Origin: SAR86 cluster bacterium
GTDB taxonomy: Bacteria; Pseudomonadota; Gammaproteobacteria; Pseudomonadales; Pseudohongiellaceae
DNA: 64,000 nucleotides
NCBI GenBank assembly: GCA_002401885.1
Contig: NVUL01000043.1
Location: forward strand, 28,387-92,386
Direction: 5' to 3'
Numbering within the stretch: position 1 is the first letter of the stretch; each line of letters opens with the position of its first letter. A model generated the notes under the pieces. That model had not been told where the DNA came from and searched no databases. It was given only the letters and a program-made list of their open reading frames with translations. Positions 9,584 through 14,587 of this stretch are shown here, one piece after another. The position numbers were made by a program, and so were the translations under genes.

Positions 9584-10924
9584 TTGGAGTTATCCTTGAA
9601 AAGCAATACTGCCTTCTTTGCTCTTAGCTTCGCAGCACTGCTTAGCTCGCTGCATTCATCGGTGCTGGCTCAGCAATCTGTAGTCCCCATCGATAGCGCG
9701 GTTCGAAGCTCGTTCGATGCCATTTCCTCTGATCCTCGTGTAACCGCAGGCCTGATAAGAATAGAAGCCAGAGAAGCAGAGATGGTTCGGGAACAATTTC
9801 GGCTAACCGAGATTCCCGCTCCTCCGTTTAAGGAAGAAGTGCGAGCCGCCTACTACTTAACATTGATGCAGGACCGCGGTCTGGAAGACGCCTATATCGA
9901 TAGTGAGGGAAATGCAATTGGAATTCGTCGCGGCAACGGTGACGGACCAACTCTCCTGATAGCCGCTCACCTAGACACAGTATTCCCGGAAGGCGTGGAT
10001 ACCAGCATCGAACTGCGTGGAGGACGCTATTATGCTCCCGGAATAGGTGATGACACCCGCGGCCTCGCTGCGATGCTTTCCATTATCGAGACACTCAACG
10101 ATTCGGGAATTCAGACTCATGGCGATATCATGTTTGCCGCAAACGTCGGCGAGGAAGGTAGGGGTGATTTACGCGGTATCAAGGCGATTTTTCGAGACCA
10201 CCCAGAGATAGATGGCTTCGTCTCTATCGATGGCGTTCGACTTCGGCGCATTACCACCGGCGGCACGGGAAGCAGACGCTTCGAGTTTCGCTTTAGCGGA
10301 CCTGGCGGACACTCCTTCGGGGCCTTCGGCTTAGCGAGTGCGGTACATGCCATGGGCAGGGCAATCAACAAGATAGCCGACTTTGAAACCCCGAGCTTCC
10401 CCAAGACCACATTCACTGTTGGCACGGTGGCCGGTGGCACATCCGTTAATTCAATCGCGGCAGATGCGGTATTCGCGCTCGATATGCGATCCAACGATCG
10501 GGCACAGTTGGCACTCTTGGAAGAACGCGCCAAGGCGGCAGCTCTGGAGGCTGTGGCCGAAGAGAACGCACGCTGGAATAACGGCGAGATCAGTGTGGAC
10601 TTTGTGTTGATTGGAGACCGCCCGGTGGGACGAACCGCTAGCGAGGACACACTAGTTCAGGCTGCCGCCCTCGCCTTCGACAAAGTTGGTATAGAACTAC
10701 AACAGCTGGGTATCTCCAGCACCGATTCAAATGTGCCCATGTCACTGGGAATTCCAGCGATAACCATCGCCGGAGGTGGCAATGGTGGTGGGGCACACTC
10801 CCCCGATGAGTGGTTCGTGCCGACGAATTCACATGAAGGTCCGCAGACTTCGTTTCTCATCACCTTAGCCATGGTAGGAATCCAAGGCGTAGACACCGGT
10901 CTCCTTGAACAACAGAACCGCTGA
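9584..10924 (+). CDS. Secreted M20 family metallopeptidase
   Basis: AHLDTVFPEG, GIGDDTRGLAAML, NVGEEGRGDLRG; N-terminal signal peptide. Confidence 0.87.
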   Translation: MELSLKSNTAFFALSFAALLSSLHSSVLAQQSVVPIDSAVRSSFDAISSDPRVTAGLIRIEAREAEMVREQFRLTEIPAPPFKEEVRAAYYLTLMQDRGLEDAYIDSEGNAIGIRRGNGDGPTLLIAAHLDTVFPEGVDTSIELRGGRYYAPGIGDDTRGLAAMLSIIETLNDSGIQTHGDIMFAANVGEEGRGDLRGIKAIFRDHPEIDGFVSIDGVRLRRITTGGTGSRRFEFRFSGPGGHSFGAFGLASAVHAMGRAINKIADFETPSFPKTTFTVGTVAGGTSVNSIAADAVFALDMRSNDRAQLALLEERAKAAALEAVAEENARWNNGEISVDFVLIGDRPVGRTASEDTLVQAAALAFDKVGIELQQLGISSTDSNVPMSLGIPAITIAGGGNGGGAHSPDEWFVPTNSHEGPQTSFLITLAMVGIQGVDTGLLEQQNR

Positions 10925-11006: not shown

Positions 11007-11627
11007 CTAATCTAGCACAGACTTCTTCTCGTCCCTCTCTGTCTTTTCGGTCAATGTCGACTTAGCAAAACTAAGAGGATATTGCTGATAGAAGCGATAG
11101 AAACCCTTCAGGCTAAATTCGTTCAACACTTTTTGGCTATAGCCTCTGCGCCTGTTTCGAAATTCATCGTAGTCCCTATAACGTAGCGTATGTAAACAAT
11201 GCTTGCATACCACGAGCCCATGTTCGGACAACGAAACTTCACCGCTGCCGCGAATCTTAAGCAGTTTGTAGTCGTCTGAAATCTTTGTAGTAACGAGATA
11301 TTCCAGTACTGGATGCTCCACTAACTGCGCCTCCAATTGTGAACACCACGCAAGATGGTAGCTTGGGTATTCCCTATGATTCCTATACCAAATCTCATCC
11401 GGAATATAGGCCAGAACCCTGCTATTCTTGATCGCCAAGGTTTTATCTGGAAGCACTCGCAATCCATCAGCCTTCAACAGCATACCTGGATCTTCCAATG
11501 CCGAACGCTCGCTGCCGGTTAGATGAATAGCTGGATCGAACAACTCGAAATAGCCAAGCTCTTCTGTGCCAATCTTCTTGCGCAACTCGTTAAAGGATTC
11601 GAAATCTTTGAAGTCTGGTAGTTTCAC
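11007..11627 (-). CDS. Uncharacterised cytoplasmic protein, third gene of ZorAB-like operon
   Basis: 206 aa, no signal or TM seen; CKHC motif followed by basic/aromatic C-terminus (FRNRRRGYSQKV...FYRFYQQYP); 9 nt downstream of OmpA-like gene. Confidence 0.6.
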   Translation of the reverse strand: MKLPDFKDFESFNELRKKIGTEELGYFELFDPAIHLTGSERSALEDPGMLLKADGLRVLPDKTLAIKNSRVLAYIPDEIWYRNHREYPSYHLAWCSQLEAQLVEHPVLEYLVTTKISDDYKLLKIRGSGEVSLSEHGLVVCKHCLHTLRYRDYDEFRNRRRGYSQKVLNEFSLKGFYRFYQQYPLSFAKSTLTEKTERDEKKSVLD

Positions 11628-11636
11628 GCGACGTTC

Positions 11637-12338
11637 CTAGCGGATTTCTTCTAGAATCGTAGAGAGGCGCTTTTCAGCGTCCGTAATTACAACAAACTCA
11701 ACGCGTCTCGATCGCTCAGCATCCTCAAGGCCATCCTCTTGCAGAATTAATTGGGAGGAAGAAAGACCATTCGCAGTCATACGCTCACGCAGCCAACTCT
11801 TTTCATGCGCGACGGTTTCGAGCGCAAACAGAAAACCTAAGGTCGTTCGAGTACGTTCCTGGGAAAGCGCCATGTTCCTCATATACGCTTCATCGCTATC
11901 TGCAGCGAAAGACCAAGAGCTAGAGGTATGCCCCTCGATTCGCAGCTCGAGAATATCGTCGCGGTATTCTTCGGACGTGAGAATAGCCGAATAACGCGGG
12001 AAAAAGTCACTAAGTATCGCCGAAAACTCAGCCTTGAGGTCAGACTCACCCTCCTCGAATAGCAAACTGGTATTGGTGAAACGGAACTTTAGATCTTCCC
12101 CCAGCTCCGCTCCCCACAGCGGCAGGTCTTCGTCGAACTCCGCGAGCAAGTCCTCATACAACTCTTCGCGCAGATCTTCGTAGAGGACAACTACTCTTTC
12201 AATCTCATCATTCTTGCGCTCTACAATAACCAGATACATTACGGAAATAAGCAGAAAGAGCATCATCAACCCGCTCATCAGATCGCTGACCGCGATCCAA
12301 TGCTCTTCCGTTTCCTGTTCTATTTCAGCACCTAACAT
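11637..12338 (-). CDS. ZorB-like / MotB-OmpA family protein
   Basis: WIAVSDLMSGLMMLFLLISVMYLVI single TM plus C-terminal OmpA-like peptidoglycan domain (LRIEGHTSS...SRRVEFVV). Confidence 0.8.
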   Translation of the reverse strand: MLGAEIEQETEEHWIAVSDLMSGLMMLFLLISVMYLVIVERKNDEIERVVVLYEDLREELYEDLLAEFDEDLPLWGAELGEDLKFRFTNTSLLFEEGESDLKAEFSAILSDFFPRYSAILTSEEYRDDILELRIEGHTSSSWSFAADSDEAYMRNMALSQERTRTTLGFLFALETVAHEKSWLRERMTANGLSSSQLILQEDGLEDAERSRRVEFVVITDAEKRLSTILEEIR

Positions 12339-12344
12339 AACGAC

Positions 12345-13574
12345 CTATTTCGATGTTTGCGGGCGCTTGCCCGATTGCTGCTCTGCCATCAACAGCAATT
12401 CGCGAAGCCTATCGGTTAGCGGGACATAGTCGTTCACAAACTTCTCCGATAATGCTGTCAATTGGTAGCCGAAGGTCTGCAACGCTTGGGTCAATTCCTT
12501 CTCCATAGACTGATCGAGGAGCTGCATCTGCTTCTCTGTTTTTTCAGTCATCGCCTCTACGTGTTCGGCGAGGCCAGAATGGGCCTGATTGACCGAACTC
12601 GCCAAGCTCAATGTAACCTGTTCAACAGTTCCGGAAATATCGCGTGCCGCGCTTGCAAGCACTTGCGTCAGGCTTTCATTGTTCTGCTCGATGCTCGCAC
12701 TCAACTTTAACGTCAGTTCGGAAACATAGTCACCAAGTGCGGGCAACCCTTCCGATGCCTGGCCTACTAAACCAGACAACCCCGAAATGTATCCTTCTAG
12801 ATTGGATGTTTGCTGCTCAAGACCACTCAACAAATTGCCTAAAGATTCGGCAACTTTATTGAAGTTTTGCGAATGCACCATCATCTGCTCGTAAGATTGG
12901 CTCGCATGACTAATCACCTCAATACTCGCCTTCTGGGCCCTCAGCATAGCGTCCAACTGACTCGAATAACTTTGCTGCCATTGCAACAGACGACCTAATG
13001 ACTCGTTAAATTTTTGGAAGTTCTCGCCATATTGCACTTCGATGCGGCTATTAAACTCCGTCATCACTTTAGCGAGGGCCGTCGTCAGCGCATCACTATT
13101 CGCTGCTACCATCTGCTGCTGATAGGAACGCGTGGATGCAAGCAAGGCCTGACTGTCGGCACGGCTCTCCTCACGCAACTCCTCAAGATTCGAATTCAGA
13201 GTAATGATGGTATTGTTCAGGTCGGAGACCGTAGCCGGCTTTTCAATGCTGTCCGAATTTTTCCTGAGCGAAGACAGGGTATTACGCAGCCTGATACTCA
13301 AGCCGCCCAATATCCCAACGATTGAGGACCATACTGCCACGCCTAAGCCATCGATCATTATCGGCACGCTGGCCTCGATATTAGCGCTATCGAAGCGCAT
13401 CAAGCCAAACGCGATACCCAAGAAGGTACCGAAAATACCGAAACTGGTCAGTATAGAGGGTGCGCTGCGTACGGTTTGCGCCGAGTAACTCGGGCCGTGG
13501 AAATAGGCAATAAGCAGCAGCATGAAGCCTATTAAACCCCAGGTTACTGAACTCAAATCAGCCAATTCAATCAT
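12345..13574 (-). CDS. ZorA-like MotA/TolQ/ExbB-type channel with long coiled-coil tail
   Basis: TSFGIFGTFLGIAFGL and IDGLGVAVWSSIVGILGGL helices; about 270 aa of coiled-coil-like sequence. Confidence 0.8.
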   Translation of the reverse strand: MIELADLSSVTWGLIGFMLLLIAYFHGPSYSAQTVRSAPSILTSFGIFGTFLGIAFGLMRFDSANIEASVPIMIDGLGVAVWSSIVGILGGLSIRLRNTLSSLRKNSDSIEKPATVSDLNNTIITLNSNLEELREESRADSQALLASTRSYQQQMVAANSDALTTALAKVMTEFNSRIEVQYGENFQKFNESLGRLLQWQQSYSSQLDAMLRAQKASIEVISHASQSYEQMMVHSQNFNKVAESLGNLLSGLEQQTSNLEGYISGLSGLVGQASEGLPALGDYVSELTLKLSASIEQNNESLTQVLASAARDISGTVEQVTLSLASSVNQAHSGLAEHVEAMTEKTEKQMQLLDQSMEKELTQALQTFGYQLTALSEKFVNDYVPLTDRLRELLLMAEQQSGKRPQTSK

Positions 13575-13655: not shown

Positions 13656-13680
13656 AAAAAACCCGCGGCGAAGCGGGTCT
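13656..13680 (-). terminator. Rho-independent terminator
   Basis: AAAAAACCCGC GGCGAA GCGGGT; upstream A-tract reads as U-tract on the minus strand; lies between two minus-strand genes, so more likely a read-through boundary upstream of 13727..14587 end: orientation fits termination of 13727..14587. Confidence 0.7.
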
Positions 13681-13726: not shown

Positions 13727-14587
13727 CTATTCTACGTCCGCGCCCTTGCGTAGATGACCGTAAATGAGCTCCTCTGTAAATTCAACGCATTTGAATTCAA
13801 GTAGCTGCATGTTTTCATCGAGCCTGCGGTATAGCGGGAAGCTTAATGTCCACGCTTCGGTATACACATTGGGATCTTCCAGCGTTGCCTCGTACATGAG
13901 GGTGTTCGGCCCCATATGCGTGTAGCGCTCAGTTACCCTCAGTGCATCGCTGTGATGATTTCCCGCGTGATCTAACCATGTGTCAGGCACTTGATCAGTT
14001 ACATCAATGACCAAGCTATCGCCTTCGAAATGCCCGCGCGAATGCCCCATCCAGCTAAATATCGGCGCCTCGAAATTGGGACGACTCATATAGACAATAC
14101 GGCTTGCACTCGCAAACTCATAAGCCATAACAACATGCTCTGGAGATTGAATAATCTGGAAGGGGAACGGTAGATAGGTCGCTCTCGGCACACCTGGCAT
14201 ATAACACTTTACGACCGGATCCAGCGACAACCAATCCTCTCTATTCTCCTGCTGTTTCGCGCGAGCCTCCGAGGTATAAGGAATATTCCCTCCCTCGACA
14301 ATGCCCAATCCAGCAGGGATTGCCCCTATCGCCCCTAATTCAACGAGGGGGCTAAAGTCCGCTGCATGAGGCTCTACATTCCAATGCGCGCTGCCGATTG
14401 CCTGCCAAATACCATTAAAGTCTGGTTTTTCGTCAGCGGTTCTTGGTACAAAATCACGCTCTGCCGCTACGCTGACAACACTCAGCATAGCTAAAAGCGA
14501 TGTAGCTATTAGTACATAAAAGCGCGGCTTTAAGCCGTTTATTGCCGGATAATCTGTCATTACTAGCTCCCATATCCTTGTTTTCAA
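13727..14587 (-). CDS. Secreted protein of unknown function (PDFNGIW-type N-terminus)
   Basis: Signal-like N-terminus, EKPDFNGIWQAIGSAHWNVEPHAA, conserved-looking long ORF. Confidence 0.7.
   Translation of the reverse strand: MKTRIWELVMTDYPAINGLKPRFYVLIATSLLAMLSVVSVAAERDFVPRTADEKPDFNGIWQAIGSAHWNVEPHAADFSPLVELGAIGAIPAGLGIVEGGNIPYTSEARAKQQENREDWLSLDPVVKCYMPGVPRATYLPFPFQIIQSPEHVVMAYEFASASRIVYMSRPNFEAPIFSWMGHSRGHFEGDSLVIDVTDQVPDTWLDHAGNHHSDALRVTERYTHMGPNTLMYEATLEDPNVYTEAWTLSFPLYRRLDENMQLLEFKCVEFTEELIYGHLRKGADVE

Follow-up and report, generated by a model that had tools for sequence, protein, structure and literature searches.

The window, i.e., the whole stretch of 64,000 nucleotides analysed here, holds three closely spaced minus-strand genes at 11007-13574. 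The coordinates given in the initial annotation as well as the gaps of 6 and 9 nt are confirmed, and its reading of the triad as an operon is borne out. All features are collected in Table 1. The hairpin upstream of zorA suggests that the triad may form a transcription unit of its own, while this hairpin is absent from the output of a consensus scanner. Flank gene F is a member of an extensive family of paralogues that has no Pfam match, and 60/61 searched genomes of the genus show between 9 and about 40 matches to it.

Table 1. Features of the locus in window coordinates; the last row gives positions in the named loci of the same genus.
Feature	Position	Strand	Description
zorA-like gene	12345..13574	-	409 aa, ATG start; MotA/TolQ-type membrane core and ~280-aa coiled cytoplasmic tail
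zorB-like gene	11637..12338	-	233 aa, ATG start; one TM helix with putative ion-binding Asp19 and OmpA/Pal-type peptidoglycan-binding domain
HNH-less zorE-like gene	11007..11627	-	206 aa, GTG start; DUF8245-type zinc domain only
CKHC codons	11196..11207	-	C141-C144, half of the putative zinc site
Terminator-like hairpin	13656..13678	-	ACCCGC-TTCGCC-GCGGGT, then T run; between zorA and its upstream gene; read from sequence
Flank gene F	13727..14587	-	upstream of triad; marks conserved insertion site in the genus (synteny)
Flank gene M	9584..10924	+	downstream of triad; M20-family peptidase (Pfam Peptidase_M20, 4.3e-21; synteny)
Candidate fourth gene	L065:8564-9109; L066:8113-8679; L067 (flipped):8316-8849; L171:5974-6507; L175 (flipped):4931-5464		177-188 aa

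With regard to the first two genes, the proposed ZorAB likeness holds, i.e., ZorA is matched by the PADLOC model PDLC00637 (ZorA2) with E=1.9e-85 and ZorB by PDLC00641 (ZorB2) with E=1.1e-86. Both stay below the NCBIfam cut-offs (ZorA 116 vs 700 bits for the equivalog, ZorB 210 vs 400 bits), and the Pfam MotB and OmpA scores of ZorB are under their cut-offs as well. ZorA is not among the six MotA_ExbB (PF01618) matches of its own genome, which are separate and lie elsewhere. Against the ZorAB II structure of Sulfuricurvum kujiense, ZorA aligns with 8vvi_F across core, tail and C-terminus (1.5e-39) and ZorB with 8vvi_A (2e-47). ZorB residues D19, H137, T138, R162 and R212 are invariant in 52/52 HNH-less systems, with H137, T138 and R212 forming part of the putative peptidoglycan site; D21 and H141/R215/R230 of type II ZorB (PMC11890865) were used for comparison, where the residue correspondences follow the alignment made here and not one from that paper. 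Within the HNH-less clade, the polar-ring residues T50 and S84 of ZorA are invariant, and position 43 is always Thr, while the S. kujiense complex has Ile there. These alignments show the predicted ion-motor core of ZorAB to be intact, including the peptidoglycan-binding and polar-ring residues.

For the third gene, the initial annotation had recognised none of ZorC-G. This proved wrong in our profile search against these families, which identifies the gene as a relative of ZorE without the HNH nuclease. The PADLOC model PDLC00643 (ZorE2) matches with E=5.6e-29 and aligns residues 1-184 to model positions 3-182 of 282; the NCBIfam ZorE model matches with 5.2e-8, far below its equivalog cut-off, and there is no Pfam match. 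E. coli ZorE starts with an N-terminal DUF8245, followed by an HNHc nuclease in the centre and, in some cases, by an extension at the C-terminus (PMC13192584), and ZorE is a nickase that is recruited by ZorAB (PMC11890865). The window protein stops where the HNH domain would start and scores -0.2 bits with the HNH profile. An unrelated novel effector was thus rejected, given the PADLOC and NCBIfam matches to the N-terminal domain of ZorE. The previously reported CKHC (CxxC) motif is present, but it does not stand alone, i.e., it provides two of the four residues of a zinc site (H91/C95/C141/C144) common to canonical ZorE. An AlphaFold2 model of the E-like protein, built from six input sequences, reached a pLDDT of 38, and a PDB profile search for DUF8245 returned nothing credible.

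We also compared short and long ZorE proteins. All HNH core positions are gapped in 52/52 short proteins, which cover 8 families of the order, while they are kept in 13/13 HNH-bearing ones. The zinc site is kept in all 65 of these proteins. HNH profile scores do not exceed 5.4 bits for the short forms and range from 72 to 178 bits for 13/14 long forms. The exception (L149:6633-8198, genome G315) is a 521-aa ZorE relative next to ZorAB of the HNH-bearing type that shows no detectable HNH and possibly carries another effector domain. Furthermore, the 52 short proteins share the subfamily motif KNSR (positions 67-70), with G25, E40, K67 and N68 being invariant. A single truncated gene was therefore rejected as explanation, since the HNH-less form is found in 52 proteins across 8 families. 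In part of the genus, another gene of 177-188 aa follows the E-like gene directly downstream on the same strand (candidate fourth gene in Table 1; no Pfam match for the checked L066).

The nuclease of an ordinary Zorya II system might also be supplied by a separate gene. Stand-alone HNH genes are found in many genomes of the order, but none was seen to co-occur strictly with the HNH-less triads, no ZorE-type HNH ORF lies within any HNH-less locus, and the window genome (assembly 84% complete) has no second match to the ZorE model. We thus regard this explanation as very improbable.

The evolutionary history was studied on ZorB. Its tree places the HNH-less systems in one group (85/89 support, 81% of the bootstrap trees; the branch for their monophyly is not starred), within which most families form supported clades. 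The nearest outside branches are HNH-bearing systems, such that a single loss of the nuclease is the simplest reading. Beside the HNH-less clade branches the system of genome G787 from another order (L133:7043-7924), whose ZorE combines an N-terminus of the short type, including KNSR, with an HNH domain and whose ZorA measures 399 aa. This looks like the architecture before the loss.

ZorB distances correlate with those of RpoB for HNH-less systems (r=0.77, p=0.0002, 30 genomes), compared to r=0.30 for HNH-bearing ones (10 genomes). When using one genome per family (f6 twice), r=0.37 falls short of significance (p=0.09). That is, the data support vertical descent within families, whereas between families it is unproven, and some early horizontal transfer is possible. 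E-protein and RpoB distances correlate in the HNH-bearing set, too (0.63), so that the contrast between HNH-less and HNH-bearing systems rests on ZorB.

To describe the distribution, a profile built from the short forms was run against 392 genomes of the order. A clean score gap separates the short form, found in 39 genomes (141-224 bits), from HNH-bearing-type ZorE in 11 (26-54 bits), with both types in three. In G075, G315, G385 and G830, an HNH-less triad coexists with a separate long-type ZorE relative. Among 369 genomes drawn from the class, G787 is the best match (118 bits) aside from the window's own genome. The relatives that carry a name are MAGs assigned to Gammaproteobacteria, among them a bin of Pseudohongiella sp. 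A short-form match was obtained for 35/45 genomes of family f40 and for 18/22 of family f6. The searched viral contigs and phage records yielded no match, and plasmids yielded only two distant matches, both HNH-bearing (Psychrobacter pA17BP1 and a 2.4 Mb Burkholderia multivorans replicon). The mobilizable Psychrobacter sp. plasmid (L132, 7461 bp) carries a complete HNH-bearing Zorya II at 342-2979, i.e., on over a third of its length, with 363 aa for ZorA, 223 aa for ZorB and 291 aa for ZorE.

Every triad found in the window's genus sits between F and the M20 peptidase, where for two loci beside F the M gene was not detected. This site shows, besides others, 16 intact triads, 5 remnants and 13 clean F-M junctions of 38-233 bp; G003 has a possible zorA frameshift, and in G035 the triad is cut by the contig end. 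Broken zorA or zorB genes go along with a damaged E-like gene in these loci, i.e., the triad decays together. In turn, the third gene is conserved beside every intact ZorAB pair of this clade, as found by the synteny comparison that the initial annotation had named. In 21 loci from 6 families (f2, f6, f7, f17, f36 and one f40 genome), the triad follows, downstream and in the same orientation, the genes oadA-oadB (Pfam-confirmed), which encode a Na+-transporting oxaloacetate decarboxylase. The distance from oadB is usually 13-268 bp, with L079 and L137 having a longer one of about 0.8-0.9 kb. At most of the other f40 loci, the triad adjoins M48 protease/TrxB-like genes. The 13 tested HNH-bearing loci all lack oadAB, and the window's genus has no oad link. 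The decarboxylase was rejected as a necessary partner, given that OadB is unmatched in the window genome and that this neighbour is missing in most of f40. In eight f6 loci (L082, L084, L085, L088, L090, L091, L093, L094), a TRAP transporter set (TatT, DctP, DctQ-like, DctM) follows the triad. Ten neighbours of the window triad have no PADLOC match. The HNH-bearing Zorya II systems of the order are patchy and adjoin type III restriction-modification, AbiEii, GajB-like helicase and PDC genes.

The triad had been considered either a carrier of a novel effector or a housekeeping complex. Near-universality at core positions in two families favours the housekeeping alternative, although the triad is often lost in the window's own genus; the effector in turn is not unrelated to known ones but derived from ZorE.

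We also assessed selection on the genes. Pairwise dN/dS values within the genus (three informative pairs) are 0.04-0.06 for ZorA, 0.05-0.06 for ZorB and 0.08-0.09 for the E-like gene, similar to those of the neighbours (M20 peptidase 0.03-0.06, flank gene 0.07-0.13). Only the very close pair L065/L069 yields 0.28 for the E-like gene, which is based on few changes. Purifying selection acts on each gene of the triad, as it does on the neighbouring housekeeping genes. This bears on the explanation of the triad as a decaying remnant, i.e., a degraded Zorya II with a broken effector, which we consider to have next to no probability. Decay usually begins with a step such as losing the catalytic domain, genuinely decayed copies are known from five loci (L153, L154, L156, L157, L072), and 47 ZorE clusters were set aside as 'inactive variants' in a 2026 preprint about Zorya II (PMC13192584), which does not imply identity with the present proteins. 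Nevertheless, the selection data strongly disfavour decay, and the zinc site and KNSR motif are kept through 52 proteins in 8 families; the ZorB tree moreover suggests one ancient loss.

Given these observations, we consider it narrowly probable that the triad is a motor derived from Zorya II which lost its nuclease once and has been kept as a vertically inherited, ion-driven and wall-anchored housekeeping device with a non-cutting adaptor. It probably does not work as a canonical defence system that cuts DNA. ZorE would have lost its HNH domain in an ancestor within the order (Pseudohongiella-type Gammaproteobacteria and relatives), followed by mainly vertical descent. As in Zorya, a perturbed or stretched envelope would lead to anchoring of ZorB to the cell wall; ion flow past Asp19 would then turn or rearrange the ZorA pentamer and its tail, which may hand the signal to the DUF8245 protein. 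The latter, presumably unable to nick DNA, could act as adaptor or regulator, with the tail as binding partner and perhaps also DNA or a further host protein. The role of such a device would be a conditionally useful one in envelope or ion physiology rather than DNA-cutting immunity. The Na+-exporting oxaloacetate decarboxylase is the probable ancestral neighbour, and this points to a possible connection with sodium energetics. What speaks against the housekeeping reading is that the triad is dispensable in the window's genus, as defence genes often are.

The main rival is anti-phage defence without nucleolysis, where the triad would still sense phage injection and block the phage, with no nicking, via DNA binding of DUF8245, recruitment of a host nuclease or ion leakage. 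We consider this plausible but not probable. It agrees with the frequent loss in the genus, which resembles a dispensable defence trait, and with the ZorAB core and DUF8245 zinc site being the same as in Zorya II. Moreover, the DUF8245 residues H90 and E99 of E. coli ZorE matter for defence and synergy (PMC13192584), i.e., the domain does more than carry the HNH. On the other hand, Zorya II of E. coli does not defend on its own without the HNH residues, nor without the zinc-site H90 (PMC13192584). Furthermore, the triad is near-universal in two families and located at mostly fixed metabolic loci, while the window provides no defence neighbours and viral or phage records no triad.

The housekeeping reading can be taken further to a domesticated immune motor, i.e., after the loss of the nuclease, a Na+-linked, wall-anchored rotary device of the core genome with a non-cutting adaptor (DUF8245). 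It would be coupled in function to the oxaloacetate decarboxylase pump, and at present it would be listed under Zorya II or among the 'inactive ZorE variants'. We propose this extended form only tentatively and rate it as less likely than not. A literature search for HNH-less ZorE found none except for the 'inactive variants' remark (PMC13192584), and one for a link of Zorya to oxaloacetate decarboxylase found none. Since PADLOC models match the triad as Zorya II at the profile level, surveys may count it as immunity. If the triads are non-nucleolytic, Zorya counts in marine Gammaproteobacteria are inflated. They would then also provide a natural separation-of-function mutant, in which the Zorya motor was kept over long evolutionary times without the nuclease. 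Such a mutant makes the own roles of ZorAB and DUF8245 testable, as well as the recruitment of immune motors to housekeeping.

Finally, we compared the triad with known systems. MotAB, TolQR and ExbBD share, by homology, the fold of a 5:2-type ion-driven membrane motor, while the triad has in addition the ZorA tail and the third gene. Zorya I and III (ZorCD; ZorFG) have the ZorAB motor pair in common with it; in contrast, their partner genes are unmatched in the family searches, and the window's ZorA and ZorB fit the type II models far better. The closest likeness is to Zorya II (ZorA2-ZorB2-ZorE of E. coli; ZorAB II of S. kujiense, PDB 8vvi, PMC11890865) and covers the gene order A-B-E, the ZorAB core, the Asp for ion binding, the polar ring, the histidine and arginine for peptidoglycan binding and the coiled ZorA tail, as well as the zinc domain DUF8245 of ZorE. 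The triad differs by its missing HNH nuclease domain and shorter E protein (152-243 aa as called, vs 274-381 aa in HNH-bearing systems). It also differs by its inheritance at metabolic loci, with fixed sites and near-universal presence in two families, instead of a patchy spread and a location in defence islands or on mobile elements. ZorA has 400-457 aa in HNH-less systems vs 503-633 aa in the HNH-bearing ones of the same order. A short ZorA tail was nevertheless rejected as an HNH-less hallmark, since S. kujiense ZorA has 378 aa and that of the Psychrobacter plasmid 363 aa with an HNH-bearing ZorE. The G787 system, finally, resembles the HNH-less ones in its KNSR motif and short ZorA but differs from them in that its HNH domain is kept.
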